Assembly: GCF_963576615.1 (NCBI RefSeq)
Contig: NC_088711.1
Location: 16,415,869-16,479,868 of the forward strand
From: Watersipora subatra
Taxonomy: Eukaryota > Bryozoa > Gymnolaemata > Cheilostomatida > Watersiporidae
Direction of reading: 5' to 3'
Length of the DNA stretch: 64,000 bases
Below are positions 1 to 53,088 of this stretch, one piece after another. A program made the translations under genes and the position numbers. The notes below the pieces were generated by a model that saw only the letters and a program-made list of their open reading frames with translations, was not told the DNA's origin and did no database searches. How positions within the stretch are numbered: the first letter of the stretch is position 1; the number at the start of each line of letters is the position of its first letter.

Positions 1-3000
1 TCTCTGATGCATCTACCAGTGTAGTCGACAGGTTCTGTAACAACAAGAGTTTGCAATGTCATTTAAAAATGGTGCCCCAGTTCTGCCTTTTAACTTGATT
101 AACGAGACGGCAAAGAATCTCACTAATAAAGCAGTGTCTCGGTTCTGTCTTTTAACTTGATTAGAAAGATGACAAAGAATCCCACTAATAAAATGGTGTC
201 TCAGTTCTGTCTTTTAATTTGATTAGAAAGACGGCAAAGAATCCCACTAATGAAACAGTGTCTCAGTTCTGTCTTTTAACTTGATTAGAAAGACGGCAAA
301 GAATCCCACTAATAAAATGGCGTCCCAGTTCTGTCTTTTAACTTGATTAGAGAGACAGCAAAAAATCCCACTAATAAAGCAGTGTCTCGGTTCTGTCTTT
401 TAACTTGATTAGAAAGATGACAAAGAATCCCACTAATAAAATAGTGTCTCAGCTCTGTCTTTTAACTGGAGTAGAAAGATGGCAAAGAATCCCACTAATA
501 AAATAGTGCCTCAGTTCTGTCTTTTAACTTGATTAGAAAGACGGCAAAGAATCCCACTAATAAAATAGTGTCTCAGTTCTGTCTTTTAACTTGATTAAAA
601 AGACGGCAAAGAATCCCACTAATAAAATGATGTTGCAGTTCTGTCTTTTAATTTGATTAAAAAGACGGCAAAAAATTCCACTAATAAAATAGTGTCTCAG
701 TTATGTCTTTTAACTTGATTAGAAAGACGGCAAAGAATTCCACTAATAAAATGGTGTCTCAGTTCTGTCTTTTAACTTGAGTAGAAAGATGGCAAAGAAT
801 CCCACTAATGAAATGGTGTCTCAGTTCTGTTTTATAACTTGATTAGAAAGACGGCAAAGAATCCCACTAATAAAATGGTGTCCCAGTTCTGTCTTTTAAT
901 TTGATTGGAAAGACGGCAAGGAATCCCACTCATAAAATGGTGTCGCAGTTCTGTCTTTTAACTTGATTAGAAAGACGGCGAAGAATCCCACTAATAAAAT
1001 GGTGTCCCAGTTCTGTCTTTTAACTTGATTATAAAAACAGCAAAAAATCCCAATAATAAATCAGTGTCTCAGTTCTGTCTTTTAACTTGATTGAAAAGAC
1101 AGCAAAGAATTCCACTAATAAAATAGCGTATCAGTTCTGTCTTTTAACTTGATTAAAGAGACGGCAAAGAATCCCACTAATAAAATGGTGTCCCAGTTCT
1201 GTCTTTTAACTTGATTAAAAAGACGGCAAAGAATCCCACTAATAAAATGATGTCGCAGTTCTGTCTTTTAATTTGATTAAAAAGACAGCAAAAAATTCCA
1301 CTAATAAAATAGTGTCTCAGTTATGTCTTTTAACTTGATTAGAAAGACGGCAAAGAATTCCACTAATAAAATGGTGTCTCAGTTCTGTCTTTTAACTTGA
1401 GTAGAAAGATGGCAAAGAATCCCACTAATGAAATGGTGTCTCAGTTCTGTTTTATAACTTGATTAGAAAGACGGCAAAGAATCCCACTAATAAAATGGTG
1501 TCCCAGTTCTGTCTTTTAATTTGATTGGAAAGACGGCAAGGAATCCCACTCATAAAATGGTGTCGCAGTTCTGTCTTTTAACTTGATTAGAAAGACGGCG
1601 AAGAATCCCACTAATAAAATAGTGTCTCAGTTCTGTCTTTTAACTTGATTAAAGAGACGGCAAAGAATCCCACTAATAAAATGGTGTCCCAGTTCTGTCT
1701 TTTAACTTGAGTAGAAAGACGGCAAAGAATCCCACTAATAAAACAGTGTCTCAGTTCTGTCTTTTAACTTGATTAGAAAGACGGCAAAGAATCCGACTAA
1801 TAAAATAGTGTCTCAGTTCTGTCTTTTAACTTGAGTAGAAAGATGGCAAAGAATCCCACTAATAAAACAGTGTCTCAGTTCTGTCTTTTAACTTGATTAG
1901 AAAGACGGCAAAGAATCCGACTAATAAAATACTGTCTCAGTTCTGTCTTTTAACTTGAGTAAAAAGACGGCAAAGAATTCCACTAAGAAAATAGTGTCTC
2001 AGTTCTGTTTTTTAACTTGAGTAGAAGGACGGCAAAGAATCCCACTAATAAAACAGTGTCTCAGTTCTGTCTTTTAACTTGATTAGAAAGACGGCAAAGA
2101 ATCCCACTAATAAAATGGCAACAATACAAAGTGGCAGTTATGTCCTCTTTAACATCTATAAGATACTAAAATCTATAAATTAACTCCATCGTTCACTTTT
2201 CTCTCTTTAAAACATCAAAAATGTCTGATTTGACAATGTGATGAGATGTTAGATCACAGCACCATGGCAAAAACATTGTTAACCACCTCAGGATCAATCG
2301 GCCCAGATTCGGATTCTAGTCTATGCATTCCTTTCCTTCTCATCTGCGCGTTTGCCTAAAATACAAAAACTTATATATATTTCTGAACGTATGTAATAAT
2401 ATTAATAAACAGACTTATGATACGGCACAAATAGGCATGGTGACATTTTGCAAATTTGTTTAGCAGGGTACAAAAAGTTTTTAACCTAATGCATATTCAG
2501 AAAATTGAGTGCTCGGACTTGTTACCTTCTGTAATATTACGATACTACTTGATTGGTATGCGACACATAATATTTTATACCTTACCATACTATACCATAC
2601 TTCACAAGATAAAATCAGAGTACAAGCGCACGTATCACACTACATTTATTCTATGCTGTACATATAAATTTCAGTGCCTGTCCTTTTGTTGGTTATTGAC
2701 GATATTGCGTCATGCGTAACGATTATCGATTGGTCTCACTAGGTGAATGTCCAGCGTTGCATGCGTAATAACAGTTTATAAACAGTTGCAGGTAATGTAG
2801 TGTAAAGGTAATGCAGTAGATAAGGTAATGTAATGTTTATAAGTTGTTTTTATTAGCCGTGTAATGCAGGCATTCAGTTAGTTAAACAATAAAATTCTCA
2901 GAGATTTTCATTTTTAATTGATGAACATAATCAGCAGATGCTACCCTTGAAGTGGGTAGACACAAACGTATCTGCTGTCGTTTCATATCATTATTTCAAA

Positions 3001-3164
3001 AGTTTATACCTTCTCAACCTTAGCCCAATACTCAGGGTCTGCATCTATTTTCTGTTTCAACAGCTTGTAGAGACGGTTGAGTGTGTCCACGTAGCAGGTT
3101 ATGTCCTTGCAACTCATCAGCTGCCTCAATAAACTCTCCAACAAACCATCTTCAGGATCTCGTC
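1..3164 (-). CDS. Gene 1: 3' half of a receptor-family gene (partial, runs off left edge)
   Basis: Three exons are visible on the minus strand: 3010-3164, 2287-2355 and 1-34. The first follows a clean acceptor (ttctgtgttcacag) in phase 1 and encodes about 52 residues of predicted helix ending in ADPEYWAKVEK, then a GTATAA donor. The second (23 codons, starting ANAQMRRKG) is phase 0. The third starts after gttacag and leaves the window. All three match gene C exons 4-6 in length and phase. The donor after exon 2287-2355 is weak (GTGGTT); reading through gives a stop within about 11 codons, so an alternative short ending is possible. No signal-peptide or membrane exon was found between 3165 and 16800, so this copy may lack an ectodomain or may use distant exons. 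Function is inferred only from gene C: the cytoplasmic tail of a membrane receptor. Confidence 0.6.
60..2116. repeat. 62-bp minisatellite, 33 copies, in a gene 1 intron
   Basis: The unit runs from cagttctgtcttttaactt to aatcccactaataaaatgg. The first and last copies are exactly 32 periods apart, so there is almost no length drift. Part of the array (about 570-1630) is a 620-bp, ten-unit higher-order duplication. The paralogous intron of gene C holds one copy at about 31310-31371. The array lies between the exons ending at 34 and starting at 2287. Confidence 0.95.
2738..2770 (-). mobile_element. Relic Helitron-type 3' end
   Basis: CTAG plus a degenerate CAACGC hairpin (ctaggtgaatgtccagcgtt on the plus strand). 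The same relic is at about 31993 in the duplicate, so it predates the duplication. A further relic end in plus orientation finishes with CTAG at 12913-12916, and another lies near 25472-25500. Confidence 0.45.
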
Positions 3165-4011
3165 CTGTGAACACAGAAAACACTTATACTTGGAATAATA
3201 ACAGCGTATAGACATGGGAGAGTAACTGGGCAGATTGATGGACTAGAAATTCAGTGAACATGATTAAAAACAATGCTTGTTTAAGAGATGATGAGACATC
3301 AAGGATCGCTGATGATTTAATCGGAAATATTGTTAAGTGCCAAAAAGTTCTGTAGTTGATGGAAATTTGCAGCTGCTATTGTGTAGTCAATACGCAAGTG
3401 CCTACCATAGACACTAATCTACCCTTATTTGCATTTTGTCCTTTCTAATGAACTTTGCTTAATTTTAATCAGGTATGCAACATACTGACTGATAGGTTGT
3501 TATACCTGCCAGTTCTACTGTTTGAACAAGAGTATAGAGGTATCACAAGAATTTGGAGAGTTTATGACTCATCAGGAAAATTGGTTGGCAATTTGAGTTT
3601 CTGTCAAAGTTGGTAATTTGAATTTCCCAAAAAAGTTGGTAATTTGAGTTTCCAACAGGTTGGTAAATTTAGTTTCCAATCAGTTATGAGACTTTATATA
3701 GCTGTCTAGACAAAAACAGCAAAAGTGATATCATAAGTTGCTCTAGAAACTTCTGCAAATTCCAGAATGTTTTTCAAATCTAAAAAAACAAATTGCCAAT
3801 GAAACGGCTGTTTAGTTCTGATGAATATATCCATTGTGAAATTGACCGATAAAGTGTGTTTTTTTTAATGAAAAGTAAAGATTAATGACTAATTCAAAAG
3901 GCTAGTTTCCCTCAACTGATCATGTTTATATATACTAAAGAAATAATAATGAAATGTTCTAAGGTAATCATATTTTATTGAGAAAAAAGGAGTTTGAAGC
4001 AAATTGTGCCT

Positions 4012-7600: not shown

Positions 7601-7689
7601 CTAGCTACATTACCCGCCTACTGTAACAGATTCACGTGCAGCATAAGGTTTATTGAGAGTTGGCTTTCATACTGTAAAACCACTCCAAA

Positions 7690-19800: not shown

Positions 19801-22800
19801 CCTATGACCCTACCTCATACAACAAGTGTACATGCGCCAATGATCATATGACCCTACCTCATACAACAAGTGTACACGTGTCAATGATCCTATGACCCTA
19901 CCTCACACAACAAGTGTACACATGTCAATGATCCTATAACCCTACCTCATACAACAAGTGTACACGTGTCAATGATCCTATAACCCTACCTCATACAACA
20001 AGTGTACATGCGCCAATGATCATATGACCCTACCTCATACAACAAGTGTACATGCGCCAATGATCCTATGACCCTACCTCATACAACAAGTGTACATGCG
20101 CCAATGATCATATGACCCTACCTCATACAACAAGTGTACACGTGTCAATGATCCTATAACCCTACCTCATACAACAAGTGTACATGTGCCAATGATCCTA
20201 TGATCCTACCTCATACAACAAGTATGCATGTGCCAATGATCCTATGACCCTACCTCATACAACAAGTGTACATGCGCCAATGATCCTATGACCCTACCTC
20301 ATACAACAAGTGTACATGCGCCAATGATCATATGACCCTACCTCATACAACAAGTGTACACGTGTCAATGATCCTATGACCCTACCTCATACAACAAGTG
20401 TACACATGTCAATGATCCTATAACCCTACCTCATACAACAAGTGTACACGTGTCAATGATCCTATAACCCTACCTCATACAACAAGTGTACATGTGCCAA
20501 TGATCCTATGATCCTACCTCATACAACAAGTATGCATGTGCCAATGATCCTATGACCCTACCTCATACAACAAGTGTACATGCGCCAATGATCCTATGAC
20601 CCTACCTCATACAACAAGTGTACATGCGCCAATGATCATATGACCCTACCTCATACAACAAGTGTACACGTGTCAATGATCCTATGACCCTACCTCACAC
20701 AACAAGTGTACACATGTCAATGATCCTATAACCCTACCTCATACAACAAGTGTACACGTGTCAATGATCCTATAACCCTACCTCATACAACAAGTGTACA
20801 TGCGCCAATGATCATATGACCCTACCTCATACAACAAGTGTACATGCGCCAATGATCCTATGACCCTACCTCATACAACAAGTGTACATGCGCCAATGAT
20901 CATATGACCCTACCTCATACAACAAGTGTACACGTGTCAATGATCCTATGACCCTACCTCACACAACAAGTGTACACATGTCAATGATCCTATAACCCTA
21001 CCTCATACAACAAGTGTACACGTGTCAATGATCCTATAACCCTACCTCATACAACAAGTGTACATGCGCCAATGATCATATGACCCTACCTCATACAACA
21101 AGTGTACATGCGCCAATGATCCTATGACCCTACCTCATACAACAAGTGTACATGCGCCAATGATCATATGACCCTACCTCATACAACAAGTGTACACGTG
21201 TCAATGATCCTATGACCCTACCTCATACAACAAGTGTACACATGTCAATGATCCTATAACCCTACCTCATACAACAAGTGTACACGTGTCAATGATCCTA
21301 TAACCCTACCTCATACGACAAGTGTACATGTGCCAACATATTTATTGATTTTGAATGTAAAAGTAAATGCTGATGCTTAAAGACTAACTGACACAAAACT
21401 TTAGTAGATTTTATCAGAAAGTATCGATATTTTTTTATCATTTGTGATTGTTTTAGATATTTGAGGTGATCTGACTGCGAGGATGTTTCAAGATTAAAAT
21501 TGACTAGACTTTATCACTGTCCAAAGCTCAGATCCAGCGAAAGTGCAATTATGACCTTAATAGTTGCAAAGAGACAGAATAAAGACGTGAAATACTGCAA
21601 CTTGAATGCAATAGCCGATATCAACTATAGCAACAGTAGCCACTAGTCACCATTTTGCAACAATTTTTCTTCTGTGCGTTTTAACTGTGATCGAGTTTTA
21701 TTGATTTTAATGTAAAAAAATCCTGGCAATCAGATGACCTTAAACATCAACTACAATCGGAAAATATAAAACAATACCGATATTTTCTGATTAAATCTCC
21801 AAAAAATTTCTGTAAATTAATCTTTAAAAAGTGTATTTAACACAAAATTATTAAGTAATTCACATTCTCATCAACAGTGCGATTTTAAGAAAAATGCTAG
21901 AAAGTTGAGATTGATTACATAGAGTAAGATACATTAGAACAGTAATTTAATGCCATATAATTTAAGGTTGAAGACTCCCAACTATGGGTTAGCACAGACT
22001 TGAGACAGCATGTGTCTGCTGTTTGTTATATTAATATGTAAATCAATTGTTCTCAACTCTATTTGCTTGTGAAAATAGTTTAGTGAGAATATAATACCTT
22101 GTTCTGAAGATTGATTGTAGGAGGCATTGTTCAAATTTTGATGCTCCCTTCCTGCAGACTCTGTAACAAAACCAAAGCCTCAATTTTTATCAACAAAAAG
22201 TGTTTAGGTGTTTATAGAAAGTCTGCTTTGGAATTTGGAAGCTTCGCTTCAAATATTCATCCACAAACATGTTTTATTTCTGTAGTTAGTTTAATGTCCA
22301 CTAAGGCTTTTTTGTTAGTTTCCGCTACCAAATGGTGAAGACAATTGGTGATTTGACGAAGTTTTTGAAACCTTGATTAGCGACGATTGTTTAGTTACGG
22401 TCAAGGTCATAAGCCTACATTCATAAAGCTATTACGAGTCATAGAAATGCTAACGGCCTCCAGCGATTTTATTGGATTTTAGTAAGCATGCTTACTAGAT
22501 TTAAAGCACCTCCTTTGTAAGATTTGGGGATGTTTTTTACTTCATTAATAGAATTATAAAAAGCTATCATTTTTGTGATTAGGCATGACTACATACTACA
22601 TATGACTGTTGGGTATAATGCTGTTCATACTGGCAACAGCTATCCACATGATAGCATCCATCGCTTTGTATTGACATTTGTGATGTACGGTAAATTCATC
22701 AGCAAGCTGTAATCATGAATATACCGGCGACAGCACCACAGGCTATTAGCGATGAAATGGGAACGTATGCGCCGGGTGCCGCCGAGGACCGCCGGTAGAT

Positions 22801-29721: not shown

Positions 29722-30969
29722 TCAAAGGAAAGCAAAATTTGTAGTTCCAGCAAATCCCACAGCATTAGAATACAAAGCAAATGTATGTTTCTACTAGCAA
29801 TGACAAAGAATCTCAACGAACAAACAAATGAACAAATAAACCCAATGAAAAAATGACTGGAATTCAATGAAACTCAATGAGCAAAAAAACTCTAACAACA
29901 ATTTAATTGTCATCTTCAGAGTATCGCAATCGCATCGTCTATAAATATGTTCGACAGTCAATGTGAAATCTGTAGACAGCAGCAAATAGAAAGATGATTT
30001 GAATATAAGAGTGTTGGCGGTGAACAGCTGTAGTAGTAAATATAGAACATCTAAATGAATTGTGCTTATCCATCTTGAGTGATAGCGGCAGCGGCAAGTC
30101 AGCCTTGTCTCCCTAAATAAGCAGCACCAGAACAAATATAGTATAATTTACATACAGTATCAAGTTTACACTACCCGCTGCTAGTCTGTAGCATGTGGTG
30201 AGGATATTGAGGGGAAACACAGCTGGTCTATAATTGCTGAAACATGGCTTTCCTTGTTATTATCATATAGGGTTAGCAAGTGTATATACTGTACACTCAC
30301 ATGGTACATAAAGGTATAGCTTGTGGATTTGACACATGCTTTCATAGAGTTCACAAATAACTAAGTGCTTTAACACGATTAGCTACTTCAAATGAAATTT
30401 CAAATTATTCCAGAAAAACATTTCGTTATCCTGTTAGCGGCAACATCAAGTCAGCTTCGTCTCCCTAAACATTTCATAATCTAGAGTAAAGAGCTTTGGA
30501 CCTTTTAAGTAGATTTCTGAGTCCAACTTGCACAACATTTTAGTCAATTTTATCAGAAAGAATTGGTGTTTTTCTATCAGTTATGATTGTTTTTGCTGTG
30601 TGAGGTGTGACTGAACTTCATCGTGGTTAAATTGTTCAGGTTGTTTTGATTGCGTCGAAAGGTAATGTTCACCACATCCTTCCATGTACCTAATGACTAA
30701 ACCAAACGGTATGAACATAGAATATTAAAAAATGTAGTGATATATTCAACGGCTTCAGTTGGACAAATGCTTGCCTTCACACCACTATGTATAAAACTTG
30801 TCTTTACACACAAATCTTCAAGTTACTTGATACAACTTAAATAACTTTAGTTTCAAACTAGTCTTTTGTTGATATTGAGTCAGCAAGCCTATGACCTCCC
30901 TATTATTCATTTCACAAAAACAGTGGAACAAAATTGGCATAATACTAGCCACTGTATTGTAGGTCTCAC

Positions 30970-33900
30970 CTTGTGGGTCCTCGCCTTGCCTCCAATGCGA
31001 TTGAATCATATGATATATGTCACAAAGCTTAAAGTCAGCGAAATTCACTTCACCTAAAATGAAACTATTTAGTTACAAGACATCAGACATAAGATACATA
31101 ACTGTCTATAAAGCTCATAATTGTAGATTGCTCAAAGATCATGGTTGTAACACACCACCAAGTAGATGCCTTATATATTATTGATCGCTTTCAACTTACT
31201 AGATATCGCATCATTTGAGGCATTTAGAAGTCTCCTACTCTCTGAAGCACCTCCATCTGCAGTTGACAGGTTCTGTAACAACAAGAGTCTGCTATGTCAT
31301 TTAAAAATAGTGTCCCAGTTCTGTCTTTTAACTTGATTAGAGAGACGGCAAAGAATCCCACTAATAAAATGGCAACAAGACAAAGTGGCAGTTATGTCCT
31401 CTTTAAAATCTATAAGATAATAAAATCTATAAATTAATTCACTCGTTCACTTTTCTCTTTTTAAAACATCAAAAATATCTTATATGACAATGTGATGAGA
31501 TGTTAGATCACAGCATAACTGTAAAAACATTGTTAACCACCTCAGGATCAATTGGCCCTGATTCGGATTCTAGTCTCTGCATTCCTTTCCTTCTCATCTG
31601 CGCGTTTGCCTAAAATACAAAAACTTATATATACATATATATATATCTGAAAGTATATAATAATATTAATAAACAGACTTATGATATAGCACAAATAGGA
31701 GTGGTGACATATATTCAGCGAACTTGTTTAGCAGGTTACAAAAAGTTTTTAACCTAATGTATATTCAGAAAATTGAGTGATCGGCCATATTACCTTCTGT
31801 AATATTACGATACTACTTGATTAGTATGCAACACATACTATATTATACTTTACCATACTATACTATACTGCACAAGATAAAATGTAATTACATTACATTT
31901 ATTCTATGCTGTGTATATAAATCTCAGTGCTTGTCATTTTGTTGGTTATTCACAACATTGCATCATTCGTAACGATTATCGATTGGTCTCACTAGGTGAA
32001 TGCCCAGCGTTGCACAAGTAATAAAAACAGCTTATAAACAGTTGCAGGTAATGTAGTGTAAAGGTAATGCAGTAGGTAAGGTAATTCCATGTTTATAAGC
32101 TGTTTTTATTAGCCGTGTGATGCAGGAACTTTGTTAAATAATAAAATTCACAGAGATTTTCATTTTTAATTGATGAACCTAATCAGCAGATGCTACCCTT
32201 GAAGTGGGTAGACACAAACGTATCTGCTGTCGTTTCATATCATTATTTCAGAAGTTTATACCTTCTCAACCTTAGCCCAATACTCAGGGTCTGCATCTAT
32301 TTTCTGTTTCAACAGCTTGTAGAGACGGTTGAGTGTGCCCACGTAGCAGGTTATGTCCTTGCAACTCATCAGCTGTCTCAATAAACTCTCCAACAAACCA
32401 TCTTCAGGCTCTCCTCCTGTGAACACAGAAAACACTTATACTTGGAATAATAATAGCGTACAGACATGGGAGAGTAACCGGGCATATTGATTGACTAGAA
32501 ATTCAGTAACCATGATTAAAAACCATGTTTGTTTAAGAGATGATGAGACATCAAGGATCGCTGATGCAACACAAAGGCTCTGGTAATTGTTTACAAGAGA
32601 CGGCTAACTGGGCCAGCACCTGTCAGCATTGTATCATCTAAAGTCATGGGCCAGTAATACTCGAGTTGGCTCTGAGCTGACTAATTTCTTTTCCATAAAT
32701 CACGCTCAATGTGATGGCAACACTGCTTCACGATGTAGTCACCCGTCCAAGCTATATGAGCAATTGATTTTACTCATAACTTAGTATTGAAAATTGTGGG
32801 TGGCAAAGCTGACAAAATACAACATTTCAGCATCAATAGTAGCTTTTTATCTGAATAAGAAAACTATTTTTCATGTTCAAGCTTTTTTCATGTTTTGCAT
32901 GTTCAAGTAGGAAATTTTGGAAATACAACGAAGGAGCCAGCTGTAACAGGAAGGAGCCAGCTGTAACAGGAAGGAGCCAGCTGTAACATTTACTTATTTT
33001 CTTTGAAAATTTAGCCAGATGATTTAATCGGAATATTGTTATGTGCCAAAAAGTTTTGTAGTTGATTGAAACTTGCAGCTGCTATTGTGTAGTCAATGCA
33101 CAAGTGCCTACCATAGACACTAATCTAACCTTATTTTCATTTTCTCCTTTCAAATGAACTTTGCTTAATTTTAATCAGATATGCAACATATTGACTGATA
33201 GGTTGTTATTCATGCCAGTTCTACTGTTTGAACAAGAGTATAGAGGTAGCACAAGAATTTGGAGAGTTTATGACTCATCAGGAAAATTGGTTGGTAATTT
33301 GAGTTTCCTTCAAAGTCGGTAATTTGAATTTCCCAAAAAGTTGGTAATTTGAGTTTCCAACAGGTTGGTAATTTTATTTTCCAATCAGTTATGAGACTTT
33401 ATATGGCTGTCTAGACGAAAACAGCAATCATGAAATCATAAGTTGCTCTAGAAACTTCTGCAAAATCCAGAATGTTTTTGAAATCTAAAAAGAAATTGCC
33501 AATAAAACGGCTGTTTAGTTCTGATGAATATATCCATTGTGAAATTTGCGATAAAGTGTGCTTTTTAATGAAAACTAAAGATTAATGACTAATTTAAAAG
33601 ACTAGTTTCCCTCAACTGATCATGTTGATATATACTAAAGAAATAATAATGAAATATTCTAAGGTAATCATATTTTATTGAGCAAAATGAGTTTGAAGCA
33701 AATTGTGCCTAGAGTTTTATTTGTACACTATGGATGTACACTATGATTGTGTGAGTTTTATTTATACACTATGGATGTACACTATGATTATGTGAGTTTT
33801 ATGTATACACTATGGATGTACACTATGATTGTGTGAGTTTTATTTATACACTATGGATGTACACTATGATTATGTGAGTTTTATGTATACACTATGGATG

Positions 33901-36900: not shown

Positions 36901-39900
36901 GTCCCCATCCTTTAACAATAATGTTCTGTTAACAATCAGTAGTCATATCCTCATAACTTCATTAAGTATGTACATATAAGCGCATGCCAATAATATAACT
37001 GTATTTGTGAAAGCAGTACTTTTACATATTATTAAGGATGCTTTAGGATAAGAGTACGTGATTGCGTACACACGAGGTGGTCGGATTCCCATTGTACACT
37101 TTTCACAATTTTAGAGAAGTTCAGTTTTTACCTTGTTTGTGGTCCACTGACAGTAGATAACTGCATCCATAGCAGTGTAACATTAAAAATAGTGGTCAAG
37201 GATATTTATAAACATTTTAATGTTTTTAGAATGATAACTGAACCCTTGCTTTACAACAAACTTTGCAAGTGTTTGTTGTAAAGCAACAAACACCTATGGA
37301 GTTTGTTGTTGCTACAAATGTTTTGTTGGATTCACTCTTAGGTATTCAATAGAGTTAATACCATGTTGGTCACAAATCACTGAGAGTGGAATGAAGAAAA
37401 CAATTCAAACTTTAAGGATATGCATAGCACAAAATGAATGCTTTTTGAAGACCCCGTCACACGATAAATATTCCCTGACATTTGCTTCACGCAAGGATCT
37501 CTAGGGTATATGTAAACATCTGAATATACCATAAAAACAAACTGCTTCTGTAATATCACTTCTATATGGAGACACTCCAAGAGAGAAAACAGTTTAATAC
37601 GGGAACTTACGATCACAGAAGGTTTTCTTTTTGAATCCGATCATAGGGAAGATTGCGATCAACCAAGATAAACTGAGAATAACGATGAGCACAATTTCCA
37701 AAGTACTCATTTTGATTGGTCGACATTTAGTCAGCTCTGAAGCTTTTGGAGTTATTTCCTGTTGAGAGGGTGCTTCAGTTGTGTTTGGTTGCTTCATTGT
37801 TATACTGGAACGTAAAGCTGAAGGAAATGATGGAGGAGGCGTAGAAGTGAGTGCAGTGGAAGATTTAGATCTTAAACACCAGCTACGGTAACCTGCAAAA
37901 CAGACAGACATCGTGCAAGTACAGATTCAGCAAACATGGAATTCTCTCCTACCACCGTGAATGCAATTGACTATATAGATATCACATCAAAATTGGCCTG
38001 AAAGATTGGAAATTTTGAAACACAGTTTAAGTAGCTGGTAGAAATTATAAATAAGAAGTATAAATTATACAAAACATATAAATGAAATTAATTTAAATGG
38101 TATAAAGTGTAAATTAGAGTAAGTTACAATACTTGTTTTTATTTTAAATTAGAGTAAGCTTCATCACTTGTTTTTATCTCTCACTCTATCATGAAATGTG
38201 CACACCGTGTCTCTAATGTGTACACCTTGTCTCTAATGTGTACACCGTGTCTATAATGTGTACACTGTGTCTCTAATGTGCACACCGTGTCTCTAATGTG
38301 TACACTATGTCTCTAATGTGTACACCGTGTCTCTAATGTGCACACCGTGTCTCTAATGTGCACACCGTGTCTCTAATGTGCACACTGTGTCTCTAATGTG
38401 TACACCGTGTCTCTAATGTGCACACTGTGTCTCTAATGTGTACACCTTGTCTCTAATGTGCACACCGTGTCTATAATGTGTACACCGTGTCTCTAATGTG
38501 CACACCGTGTCTCTAATGTGTACACTGTGTCTCTAATGTGTACACCTTGTCTCTAATGTGCACACCGTGTCTATAATGTGTACACCGTGTCTCTAATGTG
38601 CACACCGTGTCTCTAATGTGTACACTGTGTCTCTAATGTGTACACCGTGTCTCTAATGTACACACTGTGTCTCTAATGAACACCGTGTCTCTAATGTGCA
38701 CACTGTGTCTCTAATGAACACCGTGTCTCTAATGTGCACACTGTGTCTCTAATGTGCACACCGTGTCAATAATGTGTACACCGTGTCTCTAATGTGCACA
38801 CCCTGTCTCTAATGTGCACACTGTGTCTCTAATGTGTACGCCGTGTCTCTAATGTGCACACCGTGTCTCTAATGTGCACACTGTGTCTCTAATGTGTACA
38901 CCGTGTCTCTAATGTGCACACCATGTCTCTAATGTGCACACTGTGTCTCTAATGTGCACACCGTGTCTATAATGTGTACACCGTGTCTCTAATGTGCACA
39001 CCGTGTCTCACACTGTGTCTCTAATGTGTACACCGTGTCTCTAATGTGCCCACCGTGTCTCTAATGTGTACACCGTGTCTCTAATGTGCCCACTGTGTCT
39101 CTAATGTGCACACTGTGTCTCTAATGTACACACCGTGTCTCTAATGTGCACACCGTGTCTCTAATGTAAAGTAACAATATAAACATTTTTACTAGTTATT
39201 ATGTTATTATTTTATTTCTATGTATTGTTTAGGTTTTTACATGTAAGTTTTCACATAGTTTTATATGATGTATTTTTGTATATTTATATTATATTTGTGT
39301 TTATATTTGTATGTTATAACTTAAAGTATACCATTATTCTTTTTTAGGGCTCTAAAATAAAATACCCAAAATAGATTACATTCTGATCATCTAAAAGCTA
39401 TGAAGCATCTAAAAGCTCCAACCGTTTTGACAGACAAAAGATTTAGTGCAACCGATTTTTCTCAACAAATATTTTCATTTTGTATTTTATTTGTGCTTTT
39501 GTATTTTTTTGCCAAAAACCGTACATGGATTGAAAAAGGAGCTTTTGGAGGGCTCGATGTGAACCTGTGAAAGCTTATCATGGCTAAGTTTAAAAATCTA
39601 CCATAAAACCTGTATCTGAATACAACCTTTATTTGAACACCACCTTTATTTGAACGCCGCCTTTATTTGACCGCCACTATATGAGAAGAGTTAAAAAATA
39701 AAACTTTACCCTTTAATTGAATGCCACCTCTATTTGATCGCCACATTGAAATTCGTTGATCTTTATAAATAAATAATAGCAAGTTATCAGTAGAAAAGTG
39801 TCTAAAAAATCGTACTAATAATTTGTTCTTGTACATCAAAATCAATTAATTTTTTTGTGGTTGCTGTTTGTATTAAAGTCTGTTTTCTAATGGTTTTTTC

Positions 39901-40611
39901 TTTGAAAGTTCTTTTTTTCAAAATACCGACAAACTAATTGACACACTTCTAACAAAAGGCAGCTATAGAAGGGTTGAAAAATAAATCATCATGGAGTTCA
40001 AATAGAGGTTTTATAGTAAGCTAATAGTGCGAAAGTTTTGGGCTTCGAAAGAGCGTAGCAACAAGTATCACTCAAAACTAGATTTATCGCTGTACCACAA
40101 AAGCACCAGGTTTGAACGACATTAAAATAAACCTCTACTCCATTGGCTTTTAAATTTGGAAAGATTATTACTTGGAGTTGTGCGCTCTCACAACCAATGA
40201 GAACAATGGATAGAGCAATACTTGTGATGTATACTGTATACTGTAATGCTATATTGTGAGGTACTATGCACACATACTTGGATGTTCAACATAGCTAAGC
40301 AAGGTCTAGTGAACTTTACCAGAGCCTGTTTGATAATCAGAGGACTCAGTATATGGTATGTAACTGCTATATACATTACCTATGCAGTAGTCGTAGCTAC
40401 ACAAGAAGTTGTCTGGGCTGGAACATGCCTCCTTACAGCTGTAGACTGTGCCACCATTGTTGTTGTGTCTTTTGTCACAGTTTATGGGAAAATCTCTGGA
40501 TGTTTGTAACTCCTCGCAGTCATTCTCTGACCAGGTACATTTCTCAGGAATAGTTTGACTGTTTGCACTCACCAATATGGCCGCAAGTATTAACAGCTCT
40601 CTGATTACCAT
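30970..40611 (-). CDS. Gene C: type I membrane receptor with death-fold-like tail (last exon not found)
   Basis: Exons: 40380-40611 (ATG 40611; signal peptide, Cys-rich domain), 37611-37892 (stalk; membrane helix about residues 142-164), 36817-36909, 32262-32416, 31541-31609, 31200-31272 and 30970-31053. Phases agree at every join (1,1,1,0,0,1), giving about 329 residues. The ectodomain has cysteines spaced like a single TNFR repeat of BCMA/TACI type. Tail exon 4 encodes a helical module ending DADPEYWAKVEK; exon 7 encodes FADFKLCDIYHMIQSHW, which could be a late death-domain helix. A possible extra phase 1-1 exon lies at 36211-36276. The terminal exon was not identified; a conserved AATAAA on the minus strand at 29716-29721 may end the gene. 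A noncoding first exon ends at 40977. The 5' half is paralogous to gene D and the 3' half to gene 1. Confidence 0.7.
32569..33013. other. ~440-bp presence/absence segment
   Basis: Present in the gene C copy and absent at 3315 in the gene 1 copy. Flanked by GATG on both sides. No terminal repeats, so insertion and deletion are both possible. Confidence 0.6.
32936..32990. repeat. 20-bp triplet repeat
   Basis: Three copies of aaggagccagctgtaacagg in a roughly 440-bp segment present in gene C but absent from the gene 1 paralogue. Confidence 0.85.
33708..34490. repeat. 41-bp minisatellite, about 19 copies, in a gene C intron
   Basis: Same unit as 4012-4425, about twice as many copies. It lies in the intron between gene C exons 3 and 4. 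Confidence 0.95.
35568..36000. mobile_element. Foldback element, second full copy
   Basis: Same architecture as 21395-21815. Single arms also occur at about 13730-13880, 26925-27060, 30525-30665 and 47735-47880. Confidence 0.7.
36211..36276 (-). CDS. Candidate extra exon of gene C
   Basis: A 66-nt phase 1-1 open segment lies between exons 3 and 4 of gene C, after a strong acceptor (ttgctatttag). It reads ALRHSKTVSVLFEECKG onwards and would keep the frame if included. The donor (GTATCG) is weak, so it may be optional, or chance. Confidence 0.3.
38191..39170. repeat. 20-bp minisatellite, about 48 copies, in gene C intron 1
   Basis: Unit is close to cacaccgtgtctctaatgtg. The gene D intron has only about one copy (near 50908-50930), so this expansion is specific to gene C. 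Confidence 0.95.
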
Positions 40612-43905: not shown

Positions 43906-44169
43906 CACCCTACTATATTGTATGAACAAAGACGTTAATGCTGCTAGTAGTAGATTAAATATATTACCGAACTATATTGTAATTATATTTGCAATATATA
44001 CAAAACGTTGTCAAGGTTACGAGATGAGACAGCGCCATTCTGATAGTTTTACATGTCCTTACATACCTGTGTGATGAGTAGACCATTGCACCATTACTAG
44101 TATGTCAAAGAGCTTAATATCTGTAAAGTCCACAGCATCGATTCTAATAACTACAACAAAGACAAATTT

Positions 44170-44738: not shown

Positions 44739-47700
44739 CTATGACAGTGCTTGACAGGTACCTGCATGCTGGTTATCAATGATTCCAGTTTCCTCTGGCT
44801 CTCCAGCCAGTAACTGTGTTTTTTCTTCTACAGTTGCCATCTCTTTGGAGTTATCCTTAGCAGCTTCCTACCAAATAGCACAAGCATAGCCTTACTTCCA
44901 GCTTGCTGTTTCATCTGATGGATACATTTTTATAGATGAAACAACTGAAGAGATTAATGCTAGAGAATAATGTAACTGCAAGGAAGATAGTCTAATCACA
45001 TCTATTTATTTTAAAGTGACAGCACAAAGGAAATCTATAGGCACTGTATGTAGTGGGAAAGTGCACTTGAATGAGATATCAATGTGACTTTTTAGTTTTT
45101 CAATGTTTGCAAAGTTCTATTCATTATAAGACTAGTGTAGCAAGTTATTTCTTGCAAGCTAGAGTGTGGTCCAGCGAATTGAGTTTATTTACAACTCAGG
45201 CAATGTTATCTGCGAGTTCCACAAATGCCACAGTATAGATTACAATCAAAGTGGCCTCCATGTTCACCTGCTTACTTTATTCCATGGCTGACATATCCTA
45301 ACATGATTAAGTAGCGCAATACAATGGTGAACAGTCGCTGGTCCGATTTTGCACTGTTAGAACGGCTAGGTTCATGTAAAGTAAATGCGTCAGTGACTAT
45401 ATTGTTAAGTTTCGAATGGCATGAAAGCGATTGAATCATCACAAAAACAAACACGGATTGCCGGTCATGTATACGGCTGATTATAACAAGCACGTTGCTA
45501 AACAGTGGAATAACTTTCGTGTGCACAGCCATACACTAGACACAACAGCTGATTTTTTTATTCCTCAAATGGATAAATCCATTTCACACAACTTGAGCTT
45601 TGAGATGCTCTCAAGGAAGTGAGCCATAGTCATTCATGCAGAGGAGTACAGAATGTAAAACTAGTACAGCTTCATTCTCCTAAATATCCTGTAAAAACAT
45701 ACCCGAGGAGTCTGCTGTGAAGCAGATGGGATGTTCGCTGGCTCTTCAATAGACAGCTGCCTGTGCATACTCGGTCTGCTGTCTACTGACCGTTTTAACT
45801 CCATCCAATGCTAGAATACAGATATTCAGCTCAGTGACTGTGTCAGAATGATAAGAGGTGCAGAGCATCTAGTTTTATAGTGTAAAGAGTTTGCTCTCCT
45901 TTTGGGTTGAAGTTAGATACAAATAATTCATTGGAGCAATAATAATTCAATTCATTATTAATTGTGACTGCTAAAGTAGTTTGATTTAATTGATAAATTA
46001 ATTAATAAATGAAATATATTATTGAATTAAACTCTTTTATCGGTTGTATTCAATCAATGGAATATTTGCTGCAGGCATAACCTTGAGCACTAGAGGACTG
46101 GGAGATCAAAGCTTAAAGGTTGACTTGCAAGTTGCAACAAAATTCATATTACAGTTGTTTGGTATTAAAAGATTCACCGTGTTTTACTCTGCTGTGTTGT
46201 AGGTACAAAATATGTGGAAAGGTGATTACAAGCTCTTAAAAGCTAAAAAACGAACAGTTAATCACAACCATCACGAAACGCCATAGTTTGGAAACTTAGA
46301 GAAACACTTGGAGGAACACTACAAGGAACACTTTGAGGGTACATGCAAATGTCATTTATTAGCTGCCATGCTTCTGTAAAGCCATTTTCTGAAAGACCAT
46401 TTTTTGTAAAGCCATTTTCCTACTACTCGATCTCCTCCTTTCTGTGAGTGTGACCGGAAGCTATTACAAACCACTCCAAGTTTATAACAATACATGTACT
46501 AATTACTGATGTAGGTGTACTATAAGCGTATAATCACCTTGTAAACAGTAAGCCAATATGCAGGTTCAGCCTTCAATTTTCCATCCATGACCTTCAAAAA
46601 CTCATCAAGAGTTTGTTTATAATCTCTTTTGGATCCGTCTCGGCTGATCTTTCCTATTAGCCTAGCTATATCATTCTGTTTGTCAGCAGAGTGAGCTGAC
46701 TGTTGTGCCATCGCTGCCAAGTATATGTTATGTAATAATAATGTTTTTGACTTCTAGTGTGGCGATTATTTGTTTAGTAGCTAATTGTAAGGCAGATGAT
46801 TTGAAAATCACCACTATTTAAAAACATACCACTAATCATATAAACAATATAATTGTGTCATGGCAATTTATCTCACACCTAATGATTTTGCAAGCTATAC
46901 AGGAGCTAAATCATCCTGCCTCATTTCGAGGCCTTCCGTACTTATGGGCGTTCATGAAATAAACGTTTCGAGCGCATAGCAGTTTCTTTTCAAGTTGAAA
47001 TAGGCAAAAAGCATTAACAAAAAATTACAACTTTTTTACATAATAATATCACGAAATATCGTGAATCGTCTCTTTGCAATATCAAATCGTTTAATGATTT
47101 TTAAAAATTTAAAGCTGTAATTGCAGCTGTTGTTTTTAAAATCTAGATATTTTAGACTTGTATAAGGACTTCCTATTTTTAGCTGCTTCTAATGAATAAC
47201 CACTCAATGCAAGTTATCAATTAGCCCTTGTACATGTAGTATGGTGTAGTAAATAAATGATCTGAGGCTAGCATGGTATTGTTAAAGATAAACAGTACAG
47301 CCAATACATGCGAGAATAATGCTTCGTAGATTACGTGACATAATAGCTCAAGATAACATGCTGTTACTCTCATGGAAAACCATTACTCAATTGGGACTAC
47401 CACGGCTCTATGACTAGTAGGAATATCACGGCTCTGACTAGTGGGAATACCACTTTTCAAGTATTTGGGAATGTTACGTGACGTGATGTAATGCTCAAGA
47501 TAACCATACTGTGTGGTGAGTAGGCTAAGCAAACACAACTTCCGACTCTCATTTGATGTCAATTGTTTGCTCCTGATTTCGTTGGCTGCTTGTGTCATGA
47601 GTACAATAGGCTTATGCCTGATTAGTCTCGCTGACTTGTGAATGATTCTATGTACTATATGAATTGCTGCCAACTGTTTCGGCATCATACTCAGCTGCCT

Positions 47701-50700
47701 AACACAATTATAGTTTGGTTAATAAGGAACTTGCTCAGAAACCTAGTGGATTTTATCATAAAGTATTGGTATTTTTCTGTGATTAGCGGTTTGTTTTGAA
47801 TGGTTGAGGTGATCTGACTGCCAGGATGTTTCAAGATTAAAATCGACAAAACTTGATCGTGGTTATTAGGCAAAGCTATGACTAGGCTGTCTCACTTTAG
47901 GTTCTTGAACAACAAGTATCATCGTTATGTTATTATTGTAATAGAAACTTTGGCATTACTGTTAGTCATTACCTGTTATTAAAACAAGGAAAGCTTACCA
48001 AAAGAGTCTCCAGTCTCCATACCCCGTTCTGCTGCCTCGTTGTCACTGCCTTGATTTCTTTCTATATCACTATTCTCTGCTGAGGCAGCTTGGTCTAAAT
48101 AATGTAGAAAACAGATATAAAGATTAGTTAGATATTTTATGGACTTACATGTACTTACATATACAGATTTAGACATGTAGACAACAAACTGGAGTTGGAA
48201 CTATCGTTCTTTGACTAAATTAAGCTACTAGCATAAGTTCCTCAAATTTAGTGGGTAATTATTTTCATTACCAGTGCATTGCTGAGCATTCACCTAGTAT
48301 ATATACTTGTATATCAGTCGACATACAAGTATGTACATGTAAATACTTGTATGTTGACTGATATACACTGCTGATTTATATTACACGTGCAAGTATGCAA
48401 ATTATTCTTATTGTCTATTACCGCAGTCTAACTTGTTCTGCATGAAAAGGAGAACTGCAGTCAATCTGCTTTGATTGATTATTGCAACCAAATGATCCCT
48501 TACGAATTGAGCTAGTTCACGCTGCAAATCATTTAATTTTTTAAAATTTTTTAAAAATTTCTGAAACTTTTCACTCCATAAAAGGTTTGCCAAACTCTGT
48601 CCAACTTTTGGTAAATGTACATTCAGCATAACTCTTGAATGATTGTTGAATGCTTGGGTATAAATCTTTAGAATTTTGAAAAAGATACATCGGCTTGCAA
48701 ATAATTTTTAAAGAAGTGATGCTTTTGTGTTCTGACCTCGTCTACTATATCACAAAATAAACAAATATGTACATGTTGTAAAAATATAATAGTTACCATT
48801 ATATTTACTTGGAGACCAGAGACAGCGTAGGCATCTGCTTATTCCTACAAAACATGAGTACAACATGGAGCTATCTTCAAACTAGCTAATCCAAAATATA
48901 GTTTATCATATCTCCTTGTTACACTATGATCAGTGGTTCTCCTTTCGCTAGCGCTCTTTTATCACTGTGAAAATACTAATATTATACAGGGTTAATTTGA
49001 GTTGTTAACTCAACTATATCTTTAAAATAAACAGTGTTTGAAAAAAAAGCTTACAATTTTCCATAATCCAACACACGGGTCTACTGCATGCATATACAGC
49101 AAGATAAAGAAATACTAAAGCCTAGGGTAACTCACACAGAGAGAAATCTCTAAATCTTTAACGAAACCTATAACAAAACCTTGTAACAAAATTATTTCGG
49201 CCAAAATAGTAGATCTGTTCAAACCAAAAGTAATTATGTTCAGGCTCGCTCAGAATATAACTTGCTTTATTATTGGCTGGGTGAGCGAGTTGAACAAATG
49301 TTGATATGGTGTGACCACCCAAGCAAAACTAGTGTTTCTCCTCAGTAATGTTAGAGATTCACCCTTGTGTAAACCAGGCATATGGAATAAAAAAACAGTT
49401 CCAACAGTTCAATCAATGACTACTTTTTCATGTGCTGTCTTTTAAGAACTGCAAATCCTATGACCATCTCATTCAGGTTTTTATGTATATGTAAGTACAT
49501 GCCAACAATATAACTGTATGTGTGAAACCAGTACTTTTACATAATATGTAAAAGCACTGGTTTCCTGAACTTCTCTAAAATTGTGAAAAGTGTTCAATTG
49601 GAATCCAACCACCTCGTGCGTATGCAATCACGCACTCTATCCTAAAGCATCCTTAATAATATTATTATTAAGGATGCTTTAGGATAGAGTGCGTGATTGT
49701 GTACACACGAGGTGGTTGGATTCCAATTGTACACTTTTCACAATTTTAGAGAAGTTCAGGTTTTACCTTGTTTGAGGTCCACTGACAGTAAATTACTGTA
49801 TCCATAGTAATATGACATTAAAAACACTGGTCAAAAATATTTAAAAATATTTATAAATATTTTAATGTTTTAGACCAATAACTGAACTCTTGATTTACAA
49901 CAAACTCCATAAGTGCTTGCGATAAATGTTCTGTTGGATTCATTCGTAGGTATTCAATGGAGTAATTACCATGTTATTCATAAATCACTGAAAGCAGCAT
50001 GGAGAAAGCAACTCTAACTTTATGGATATGTATAGAACTAAACGAATGCTTGTTGTATATAGACCCAATCGCACAATAAATATTCTTTGATATCTTTTCA
50101 CGATAGCATCTCTAGGGTATATGTGAAGATCTAAAAGTACCACAAAAAAGACAAACTGCTTTTATATTATTCATTTTATATATAAATACATCCCAAGCAA
50201 AACATTAGTTTAATATAGGAACTTACGTCTACTGAATTTGTCCTTGTCGAATCCGATCATAAGGAAGATTGCGATCAAGCAAAATAAACTGAGCAGAACG
50301 ATTAGCACAATTTCCAAAGTAAACTTTTTGATTGAAAGACTTTCAGTCGGCCCTGAAGATTTTGAGGTTATTTCTTGAGGAGAGGGTGTTTCGATTGTGT
50401 TTGGTCGCTCAGTTGTTATACTGGAACGTAAAGCTGTAAAGATTTTGATTGATAGACTTTCAGTCGGCCCTGAAGATTTTGAGGTTATTTCTTGAGGAGA
50501 GGGTGTTTCGATTGTGTTGGGTCGCTCAGTTGTTATACTGGAATGTAAAGCTGAAGGAAATGATGGAGGAGGCGTAGAAGTGAGCATTGGAGTGGAAGAT
50601 TTAGATGTTAAACACCAGCTACGATAGCCTACAAAACATACAGACACGATGAAAGTACAGATACACCAACTTGAATGCATTCTACTCTATAAACATGACA

Positions 50701-51499
50701 TTTAAATGGTCTCGAAACAAGTCTGGAAACACAGTTTAAGTAGCTGGTAGAAATTATAAATAAGACATATAAATAGCACATATTATGTGAATGAAGTTAA
50801 TTTAAATGGTATAAAGTATAAATTAGAGTAAGTTACAATACTTGTCTTTATTTTAAATTAGAGTAAGCTTCATCACTCGTTTTTATTTCTCACTCTATCA
50901 TGAAATGTGTACATTGTGTCTCTAATGTAAAGTAACAATAAAAAACCTCAATATTTCAATGTGACACCAAGCCCACTACCACTGCACCACTCAATAACCT
51001 TTCTGGATGTAAGAATAACTGTGCACATACCTATTACATATGTTGATATTTCACAACACACAGTACTACCAGCACTAGTACATATAATCAATATTACTAT
51101 ATCATCTACACGTATGTAATATTCTCTTCTGTAATGCTATACTGTGATGCACTATACTCACATACTCTGATGTTCAACATAGCTAAGCAAGGTCTTGGGA
51201 ACTCTACCAGATCCTGTTTGATAATCAGAGGACTCAATATATGGTATGTAACTGCTATATACATTACCTATGCAGTAGTCGTAGCTACAAAAGAAGTTGT
51301 CTGGGATGGAACAAGCCTCCTTACAACTGTAGACCGTGCCACCATTGTTGTCGTGTCTCTTGTCACAGTTGATTGGAAAATCTTTAGATGTTTGTAACTC
51401 CTCGCAGTCATTCTCTGACCAGGTACAATTCTCAGGAATAGTTTGACTGTTTACACTCACCAATATGGCGGCGAGTATTAATAGCTCCCTGATTAACAT
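44739..51499 (-). CDS. Gene D: complete 466-aa type I membrane receptor with CARD-like tail
   Basis: Eight coding exons join with consistent phases and one open frame: 51268-51499, 50227-50628, 48797-48844, 48422-48631, 47999-48094, 46538-46713, 45703-45810, 44739-44867. Total 1401 nt. Residues 1-19 are a signal peptide. Residues 25-77 are a Cys-rich domain (NCTWSENDC, then CKEACS and CSYDYC), similar to BCMA/TACI-type TNFR repeats. Residues 79-180 are a Ser/Thr/Pro stalk holding a 39-residue duplication absent from gene C. The membrane helix is residues 182-204. Tail: exon 4 (228-297) has LQRELAQFVRDHLVAIINQ, like the first CARD helices; exon 6 (330-388) has SKRDYKQTLDEFLKVM and AEPAYWLTVYK, like later CARD helices, with an acidic linker exon between. 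The acceptor of exon 4 has a poor pyrimidine tract. A 5' noncoding exon ends at 51868. TNFR and CARD assignments are inferred. Confidence 0.78.
47735..47880. mobile_element. Foldback element, single arm in gene D
   Basis: Carries ggttgaggtgatctgactgc and tttcaagattaaaatcgac, the arm consensus, in the intron between gene D exons 5 and 6. Confidence 0.6.
48309..48366. repeat. Hairpin, 24-bp arms
   Basis: gtatatcagtcgacatacaa and its inverted copy at 48343-48366 differ at one position; 10-nt spacer. It lies in the intron between gene D exons 4 and 5. Confidence 0.9.
49524..49760. repeat. Two consecutive large palindromes in gene D intron
   Basis: 49524-49563 is a hairpin of about 20-bp arms (GAAACCAGT, CTTTTACATA and complement). 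49564-49760 has arms of about 95 bp centred at 49662. Gene C has each arm once (37010-37128). Confidence 0.9.
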
Positions 51500-51515
51500 T
51501 CTGATTTCTCACCTA

Positions 51516-51867
51516 CTGAAAATAAAACCATCGATTATCAGATTCTTCTTTAAACGCTGCATATGCTGCAAGCAACAGGTTTTAACTCAATGAAAAAGCA
51601 CAAATAAGTAAAATTTCTGTACTTTAAGGTAGAAAACATTGAAAATTATTTTGCTCTAACTCCTTTCTCTAATCATTTGATCAGCGGATATATTTGTCAA
51701 ATTTTGGTATGTTTATAAAAGATTATACACTTAGATTGGACCAAGTGTATAATGACTGAACATAAACACCAACGAAATAAGACAAAGTACACATAATACA
51801 ATTGAATAACAACTCCTTCACACAAGGTCGTGACAACAAATGGGTGACAGATAACAGACACTCTTAC
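51516..51867 (-). other. 5' UTR intron of gene D
   Basis: A donor (cag then GTAAGAG) at 51867 and an acceptor (ttttattttcag) ending at 51516 remove an intron upstream of the ATG at 51499. Gene C keeps the same arrangement, so the first exon is noncoding in both. Confidence 0.6.
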
Positions 51868-53088
51868 CTGCTAAGTAGCTCTCCCTACTGTTTGTCTTGC
51901 AACACCGAGTGATATAGTAGAAATGCAATGATTTACATGCCAGCATGGTCAGTAAATAAACGCATGCATATGGAATGCGGCTAGTAAGCCTATAATAGGT
52001 TAATTCTTTACCTTGGTTGACCAATCAAATGAAACTATTTACTCAAGTCATGATATGCTCTAAGCCACATGTGTCAAACTCATGGCCCGCGGGCCACATC
52101 CGGCCCTCCTTGTAATCTTATCTGGGCTGCAAAGTCCTTTCACATCATTGCTATCCAAGGCCCATTGATATGAAGCGCTGACAGGCCCATACTCCCTGGA
52201 ACGGATGGGCGCCCCAACTTTTTAATGGCTTTCGGAGACTAAGTACTAAGAATTGCAGTCTAAGCGCATTCACTTGGAATTTCCAGCAACTAGCAACTAA
52301 CGCTACAGCGCTAGCTGCTAGTAAATTAGCCTAAATCAGTTCATTGCTCGCTTCTTCGCTCTGAGCTCTGAGCTCCACTTCATCGATGAAGTGGAAAAGC
52401 TCACTAATCTAGTATTAGTTTCGCCTGCGACTAATGCAATGAGTGAGTGATCTTACTCTGCATTGAAGCGAATCAAAACATTGACGAGGAGCACCATGGG
52501 GCAGGCTGTCTAAATAATCTTCTAATGTTATACATATATAAAGATGTTGAAATAGATACAAAATCAGTTGTGAAAGATTTCTGCCATGGACGTATTGACA
52601 GAACAAAAGCTATTGCAATAAAGAAGTAATAGCTCTTGTTCTTTCAATGTTTTTTTACAGACATCTGTACTGTCATGAGTTTTATATCGTTCGTTGAATA
52701 AAGAAAAGGTTTTGCTTACCATGAACCATAAACAATATATTTATGTAGATTTTGATGCTTACAATTGATTGCATTTATGCATACTTTGAAGGTTGTTGAT
52801 GCTTGAAAGGTCTATAGCAGTTAGCTTGATGAGCGGTGCTGTCTATTCTGAGAATCTCCATAACACAGGACATTACACTGAACATAAATGAATTTGTTGC
52901 TCTGGTCAGATCATATAATCAGATCAAAGTCATAAGAGCAAAGAGAACTGAATGATTTGAACTGTTATTGCTGAACAGCACACATTTTATGTATATTTCC
53001 ACGTTTTTTAGCGTGTTCATATTTCTAACTTGTATAATTTTGATAGGAAATATTTTTAGGAGTCAAATCTTTTTGGGATATTCACATA

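Follow-up and report, generated by a model that had tools for sequence, protein, structure and literature searches.

Among described receptors, the closest in plan to the genes reported here are members of the TNF receptor family with a single Cys-rich repeat (BCMA/TNFRSF17 and Fn14) or with BCMA-like repeats (TACI), which likewise combine a small Cys-rich domain with a type I, single-pass architecture. In two of our units (G3 and G4), the last four Cys of the first exon are spaced C-x3-C-x9-C-x3-C, near the C-x3-C-x8-C-x3-C of BCMA. Unlike BCMA, Fn14 and TACI, the array units have eight conserved Cys, lack CxxC, have no Pfam support and spread the domain over two exons. Invertebrate TNFR proteins with cell-death modules, as described in two reports, include an amphioxus TNFR-caspase and a cnidarian TNFR with a death domain (PMC2575513, PMC4979521). 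Such a surface Cys-rich domain with a tail module is the plan that an earlier, sequence-only reading of this locus supposed here. Those proteins, however, carry recognizable TNFR, caspase or death domains, whereas none was recognized in the array units. Expanded invertebrate receptor families, such as the SRCR genes of sponges, likewise involve an expansion of surface Cys-rich proteins (PMC10855680), but the array gene models have no SRCR or other known domain (Pfam). A literature phrase search for a TNFR-CARD combination found no paper.

In the stretch of DNA analyzed here (64,000 nucleotides; the window), we describe what we consider, with an evenly balanced judgment, to be a recombining tandem array of orphan single-pass (type I) receptor-like genes with no recognized domain.

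Cys-rich fronts and stalk exons

Four units (G1 to G4), all on the minus strand, comprise a signal-peptide-like segment (by hydropathy) with one small Cys-rich exon, followed by an S/T/P-rich stalk exon.

51268..51499, minus strand: G1 exon 1, signal-peptide-like segment and Cys-rich domain with 7 Cys; ends in phase 1
50227..50628, minus strand: G1 exon 2, eighth Cys, S/T/P-rich stalk (52% STP) and membrane helix; phase 1 to 1
40380..40611, minus strand: G2 exon 1, signal-peptide-like segment and Cys-rich domain
37611..37892, minus strand: G2 exon 2, eighth Cys, stalk and membrane helix; phase 1 to 1
27773..28010, minus strand: G3 exon 1, signal-peptide-like segment and Cys-rich domain
27355..27577, minus strand: G3 exon 2, eighth Cys and stalk, closed by a stop with no membrane helix ahead of it
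24023..24260, minus strand: G4 exon 1, signal-peptide-like segment and Cys-rich domain
23399..23830, minus strand: G4 exon 2, eighth Cys, stalk and membrane helix; phase 1 to 1

The Cys domain has eight conserved Cys in all four units, seven from exon 1 and one from exon 2. In each of the four, phase 1 applies both at the end of exon 1 and at the start of the stalk exon, which bears out the matching splice phases proposed earlier. A regular expression for the seven Cys, run over the window, matched the four minus-strand first exons and one plus-strand site at 43718, which was set aside as lying inside a 31-bp minisatellite; the expression had no match in 30 Markov-1 control windows. An HMM built from the four first exons, and hence circular, matched only those four below an E value of 0.2 among 1544 ORF fragments. 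Single-sequence phmmer searches, with G1 and G4 as the only queries, linked the two pairs, G1/G2 and G3/G4 (E values of 1.4e-5 to 4.3e-4). Searches of the viral and prokaryote sequence collections gave no relatives of the ectodomain, and its profile had a single PDB match (E = 1), on the signal-peptide part. Some Cys were out of register in the underlying MAFFT alignments (A1, A3 and A5), which weakens both this search and the first of the profile tests against BCMA, TACI and Fn14 given below.

Exon 1 looks like constrained coding sequence in both pairs, with a dN/dS of 0.14 for G1/G2 (P = 8.9e-5 by Fisher's test; 2, 3 and 13 differences at the three codon positions) and of 0.36 for G3/G4 (P = 0.011; 11, 6 and 13 differences). 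The stalks, on the other hand, are near neutral (dN/dS of 0.94 and 1.38), which is a point against the receptor array, and that of G1 contains a 117-bp (39-codon) duplication (50326-50553). Hydropathy places a hydrophobic 19-mer 3' of the stalk in G1, G2 and G4 (means of 3.41, 2.79 and 2.96, respectively) and none in the open frame of G3. By this measure, G1, G2 and G4 appear to fit the plan of a single-pass surface receptor, which would be joined to a tail as discussed below. A stalk with a membrane helix, previously read in each gene, therefore holds for three of the four; similarly, from the four to five minus-strand genes proposed to have a common exon plan, there remain four Cys-rich fronts with stalk exons, whose tail exons were partly recovered.

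Tail exons

Downstream of the fronts, we delimited the following exons and candidates.

63609..63802, minus strand: terminal exon in a broken copy, presumably of a unit beginning past the right window edge
48797..48844, minus strand: G1 candidate exon 3 from the splice scan, without homology support; phase 1 to 1
47999..48094, minus strand: G1 candidate linker exon with no homologue in the window; phase 1 to 1
46538..46713, minus strand: helical tail exon (H1) downstream of G1, beginning with an ATG and preceded by a weak acceptor; phase 1 to 0
44762..44867, minus strand: G1 candidate exon with no homologue in the window; phase 0 to 1
44067..44150, minus strand: G1 candidate exon similar to the beginning of the G2 terminal exon; starts in phase 1, donor GT after 44067
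32262..32416, minus strand: G2 exon 3, helical tail exon (H2), acceptor score 7.8; phase 1 to 0
31200..31272, minus strand: G2 exon 4; phase 0 to 1
30818..31053, minus strand: G2 terminal exon, open up to a TGA stop at 30820-30818
23054..23089, minus strand: G4 candidate exon 3; phase 1 to 1
22098..22160, minus strand: G4 candidate linker exon; phase 1 to 1
3010..3164, minus strand: helical tail exon (H3), 97% identical to H2, of a further unit, perhaps G4's

The helical exon was recovered in three places, and the terminal exon is open in one, with one broken copy, one truncated copy and one partial homologue besides; recovery of the several small tail exons claimed for each gene is thus partial, and we could not reconstruct residues 228-388 of the earlier gene D exactly. 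The G2 chain of 5 exons stays open from its ATG to its stop, giving 325 amino acids, with GT/AG at all four introns and no internal stop. After both G1 and G2, a helical exon is followed by a terminal-type exon in like order. H1 resembles H2 and H3 at the protein level (E values of 0.004 to 0.009), with equal phases and no blastn match. The likeness of the G1 candidate at 44067-44150 to the G2 terminal exon had a score matched by 0 of 2000 shuffles, for a candidate picked by eye, and an E value of 0.4 in the homology search. H2 and H3 differ by one synonymous and three nonsynonymous changes, and the dN/dS between H1 and H2 is 0.67 (P = 0.33); there is therefore no sign of constraint on the helical exon.

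We infer that front and tail exons are joined in one transcript. In G1 and G4 the exons leading from front to tail are weak; in G2, scanning in phase 1 gave none that was convincing. The last G4 candidate exon (22098) and the next helical exon (3164) are 19 kb apart, a further point against the receptor array.

Comparison with TNF receptors and death-fold proteins

We compared the units with divergent TNF receptors that would combine one BCMA/TACI-like repeat with a death-fold tail, an explanation that one small Cys-rich domain, a stalk and a single helix would suit. Exon 1 of G1 and G4 and the four gene models had no TNFR-type Pfam match at E values as high as 10, in a search whose HMMER filters discard most matches above 0.1. 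None of the four units has the Cys spacing of BCMA/TACI with its CxxC, which BCMA itself shows (a general TNFR Cys pattern also misses BCMA and is hence not informative). When the last four exon-1 Cys were aligned to BCMA, 7 of 1000 Cys-keeping shuffles reached the score of G4 and 31 of 1000 that of G3, which favors kinship, but 707 and 300 of 1000 reached those of G1 and G2, where likeness was not seen. Profile comparison with BCMA, TACI and Fn14 gave a P value of 0.0039 at a probability of only 8.7%, with some Cys out of register and only one Cys paired. An in-register profile gave an E value of 0.0069 at a similarly low 5.6% over 7 columns, but 10 of 200 Cys-keeping shuffles reached its score. 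We also weighed a possible likeness of the Cys spacing to ShK-like domains; there was no such Pfam match. The extracellular Cys-rich domain of TNFRs is given as having six Cys in one report (PMC4979521), against the eight conserved in all four units with no TNFR-type Pfam match. Overall, neither the spacing nor the tests with Pfam, PDB and profiles establish the BCMA/TACI type previously assigned to the domain.

The CARD-like nature proposed for the tail found no support, with no CARD match in Pfam scans of the tail or gene models and an hhalign probability of 0.1% in both comparisons with four CARDs. An ORF at 48707-48411, considered as a CARD-like tail, was dropped, as it had no Pfam match and no splice plan was seen. 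Pfam scans of tail exons and gene models likewise gave no Death domain match, and hhalign against the Death domain gave 0.4% for the terminal exon, 0.8% for the G2 tail and 0.2% for the G1 tail. In the G2 tail, the start of the terminal exon was placed near death-domain helix 4 (P = 0.074), a hint of a death domain that stays below significance. The helical profile had 11 PDB matches (E values of 0.17 to 6.2), with no death-fold protein named among them, and the terminal exon matched three designed proteins only (E values of 0.21 to 0.39). In structure modeling, the AlphaFold2 model of G4 exon 1 with G3, which left out the eighth Cys, was uninformative (pLDDT of 42.3), and the helical exon modeled alone formed three helices (pLDDT of 69.8; best PDB match no better than E = 3.6). 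The absence of TNFR, Death and CARD matches in Pfam, the number and spacing of the Cys, the shuffles that reach the in-register score and the low CARD probabilities make divergent TNF receptors distinctly improbable.

Several other matches stayed below the cut-offs. Two came from the three minus frames of 24199-34100, scanned against Pfam (E values of 0.16 and 0.17). We took as chance a cypovirus polymerase match to the terminal exon (E values of 0.028 to 0.043), a QueG match to H1 (E = 0.044) and matches of seven Pfam models to the gene models (E values of 0.2 to 4). Rfam had no match in the window at its thresholds.

The fused unit, recombination and competing explanations

At 27364-27366, the stalk exon of G3 runs directly into a piece of a terminal exon. 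Such a fusion junction would be expected of exons from a single kind of transcription unit. The fusion truncates G3, whose product may be secreted. Secretion is uncertain because a donor-like GTAAG site in the stalk (phase 1, at 27376) could splice round the stop. Identities between fronts (92% for G1/G2, 87% for G3/G4) and between tails (97% for H2/H3) follow different pairings, and G2 looks like a mosaic, its front resembling that of G1 and its tail exon sharing 97% identity with another unit's. The fusion junction and the discordant front and tail relationships support the word "recombining" in the earlier description. The cluster, first placed at 1-51900, stands as a tandem array but extends farther, with the broken terminal exon near 63.6 to 63.8 kb.

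The same discordance could instead mean that two tandem families alternate, short receptor-like genes (Cys-rich domain, stalk, membrane helix and short tail) and separate genes of helical and terminal exons. Weak intermediate exons point the same way, and H1 could start another gene because its acceptor is weak (score of -2.8) and an ATG stands at its start. Against such alternation, the H2 and H3 acceptors score 7.8 with no ATG at the start, the G2 phases fit front to tail, and the G3 fusion unites a stalk exon with a terminal exon, though a crossover between neighboring genes could also give such a fusion. We give alternating families a minority chance. If front and tail are not joined, the locus would be an ordinary gene cluster.

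An array in decay, consisting largely of broken fragments alongside one or two copies that are still active, would account for the fused and truncated G3, the broken terminal exon, the near-neutral drift of the stalks and the minisatellites throughout the region. We regard it as unlikely, as exon 1 is constrained in both pairs and the models of G1, G2 and G4 are open.

In a recombining array of receptor-like genes, the 8-Cys domain would act at the cell surface as the binding site for a protein ligand. The stalk, varying in length, would be a glycosylated spacer, and the tail, made up of the helical and terminal exons, would recruit a cytoplasmic adaptor. Unequal crossing-over could reshuffle the units, giving G2 a front like G1's and a tail like another unit's. 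Joining a stalk exon with a piece of a terminal exon could yield the short form of G3, either a secreted decoy or a dead copy. The bolder proposal, a previously undescribed family in which recombination in the tandem array swaps 8-Cys fronts and helical signaling tails while stalk-terminal fusions make soluble decoys, we hold to be doubtful on present sequence evidence. Were front and tail joined, the locus would be a compact natural case of receptor evolution, with ligand-binding and signaling halves swapped between neighbors and a membrane form turning into a secreted one, and its genes would form a candidate family for recognition that lacks a named domain.

A transposon-like ORF with no relative in the viral and prokaryote collections lies at 55077-56003. 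Minisatellites fill the region, and the 62-bp one at 78-2116 has expanded from part of the intron preceding G2 exon 4.

Cys-rich front exons and stalks

We read the window, with about an even chance of being right, as carrying an array of recombining genes for orphan, single-pass receptor-like proteins, from which a secreted form may have derived. Four minus-strand exons share a common plan, a hydrophobic start followed by a Cys-rich segment, and each opens one receptor-like unit (G1 to G4) whose front also includes a stalk exon (exon 2).

Exon 1 of the four units (hydrophobic start and Cys-rich segment)
51499-51268, minus strand, G1 exon 1
40611-40380, minus strand, G2 exon 1
28010-27773, minus strand, G3 exon 1
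24260-24023, minus strand, G4 exon 1

A 7-Cys regular expression run over the window matched all four exons and had no match in 30 Markov-1 windows; one plus-strand match, within a 31-bp minisatellite, was set aside. A domain HMM, trained on the same four exons that it recovers, matched G1 to G4 among 1544 ORF fragments (next best, E = 0.21). In single-sequence searches with two of the four units as queries, G1 found G4 (E = 1.4e-5) and G3 (4.3e-4), and G4 found G1 (2e-5) and G2 (5e-5). These searches link the pairs G1/G2 (92% exon 1 identity) and G3/G4 (87%). The Cys-rich exons are constrained: G1/G2 show 11 synonymous and 7 nonsynonymous changes (dN/dS, 0.14; Fisher P = 8.9e-5; codon-position differences, 2, 3, and 13), and G3/G4 show 13 and 17 (dN/dS, 0.36; P = 0.011; 11, 6, and 13). 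Exon 2 encodes an eighth Cys in all four units, and the domain has the spacing C-6-C-12-C-(13 or 10)-C-3-C-(7 or 9)-C-(4 or 3)-C-6-C.

In 4/4 units, exons 1 and 2 meet in phase 1. The stalks are 36 to 52% Ser, Thr, and Pro and evolve without constraint (dN/dS, 0.94 for G1/G2 and 1.38 for the G3/G4 stalk); that of G1 carries a 117-bp, 39-codon duplication. A hydrophobic 19-mer follows the stalk in G1, G2, and G4 (hydropathy, 3.41, 2.79, and 2.96), whereas the open frame of G3 reaches a stop before any such 19-mer. The shared exon plan of the sequence-only reading thus stands for the Cys-rich exons and phases but not for the membrane helix of G3. In G3, a phase-1 GTAAG at 27376 resembles a donor site and could allow splicing past the stop; no exon to pair with it was found. 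Products of this type would be expected to lie at the surface, bind ligand, and signal.

Comparison with TNFR, CARD, and death domains

The domain had been assigned to the BCMA/TACI type of TNFR. TNFR Cys-rich domains are described in PMC4979521 as having six Cys. No TNFR-type Pfam match was obtained with exon 1 of G1 and G4 or with the four gene models, and the BCMA/TACI Cys spacing with CxxC was absent from 4/4 units. The units may still, at low odds, be very divergent TNFRs. When part of the domain was compared with BCMA, few Cys-keeping shuffles reached the score for G4 (7/1000) and G3 (31/1000), but 707/1000 and 300/1000 did for G1 and G2. Profile comparison with TNFR repeats (BCMA/TACI/Fn14) gave 8.7% (P = 0.0039) with the alignment out of Cys register and 5.6% (E = 0.0069) in register, a score reached by 10/200 shuffles. 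The ectodomain fold model was uninformative (pLDDT, 42.3).

Tail exons and their copies
46713-46538, minus strand, helical exon H1, phase 1 to 0
32416-32262, minus strand, helical exon H2, phase 1 to 0
3164-3010, minus strand, helical exon H3, phase 1 to 0
31053-30818, minus strand, terminal exon (G2), open up to its stop
near 63.6-63.8 kb, minus strand, terminal exon, broken copy
near 27.3 kb, minus strand, terminal exon, truncated copy

The H1 protein resembles H2 and H3 (E = 0.004 to 0.009), and blastn gave no match of H1 to either; H1 has a weak acceptor (-2.8) and an ATG at its start. No sign of constraint was seen in H2/H3 or H1/H2. A structure model of the helical exon has three helices (pLDDT, 69.8; pTM, 0.37), for which the PDB gave nothing better than E = 3.6. 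The proposed CARD-like tail had no CARD match in Pfam and 0.1% in both hhalign comparisons with CARDs. On present evidence, neither the TNFR nor the CARD name should be used. Death domains had no Pfam match in the tail exons or gene models searched; hhalign placed the terminal exon's first helix near death-domain helix 4 (0.8%; P = 0.074); its two remaining comparisons scored 0.4% and 0.2%. A table in PMC4979521 lists two proteins with TNFR Cys-rich domains in the sponge Amphimedon, neither with a death domain, and PMC2575513 describes TNFR-caspase hybrids in amphioxus.

Gene models and recombination

Splicing of the front exons to tail exons is inferred from the sequence. The G2 model joins exon 1, exon 2, the helical exon, exon 4, and the terminal exon into 325 aa, with GT/AG at 4/4 introns and no internal stops. 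Additional small exons in G1 and G4 are candidates only. An eye-picked G1-unit candidate (44150-44067) resembles the first part of the terminal exon (score reached by 0/2000 shuffles; E = 0.4 in an open search).

The sequence supports the proposal of a recombining array. G3 has a G4-like stalk as far as 27364 and a terminal-exon match from 27366 onward, a junction that marks a crossover between a stalk exon and a terminal exon. Front and tail pairs are discordant: H2 and H3 are 97% identical, and H1 is distant. Because front pairs and helical-exon pairs disagree, G2 is a mosaic if H2 is part of it. H3 and H2 lie in a segmental duplication (2117-5225 and 31371-35165; about 87 to 95% identity).

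Repeats and transposon-like sequence

The window is rich in minisatellites and segmental duplications; Rfam gave no match over it at its thresholds.

Large minisatellites and transposon-like ORFs
78-2116, minisatellite, 62-bp units
4013-4422, minisatellite, 41-bp units
33712-34490, minisatellite, 41-bp units
19446-21336, minisatellite, 44-bp units
38195-39167, minisatellite, 20-bp units
55077-56006, plus strand, transposon-like ORF
58138-58808, minus strand, transposon-like ORF, weak likeness to the THAP9 transposase C-terminal part

The 62-bp array at the left edge is 97 to 98% identical to G2 31370-31304 and represents an expanded piece of the G2 intron preceding exon 4; another unit therefore probably extends past that edge. 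The 41-bp unit is repeated 10 times in one copy of the segmental duplication and 19 times in its partner. The THAP9 likeness (E = 0.0069) was below the cut-off. Overlapping minus-strand ORFs at 5904-6424 contain repeated RRAET-EQ-type units, which may resemble repeats of some Helitron proteins. A short repeat between units (21386-21826, 35559-36005, and 47744-47864), with copies about 76 to 83% identical and in both orientations, is possibly a small nonautonomous transposon.
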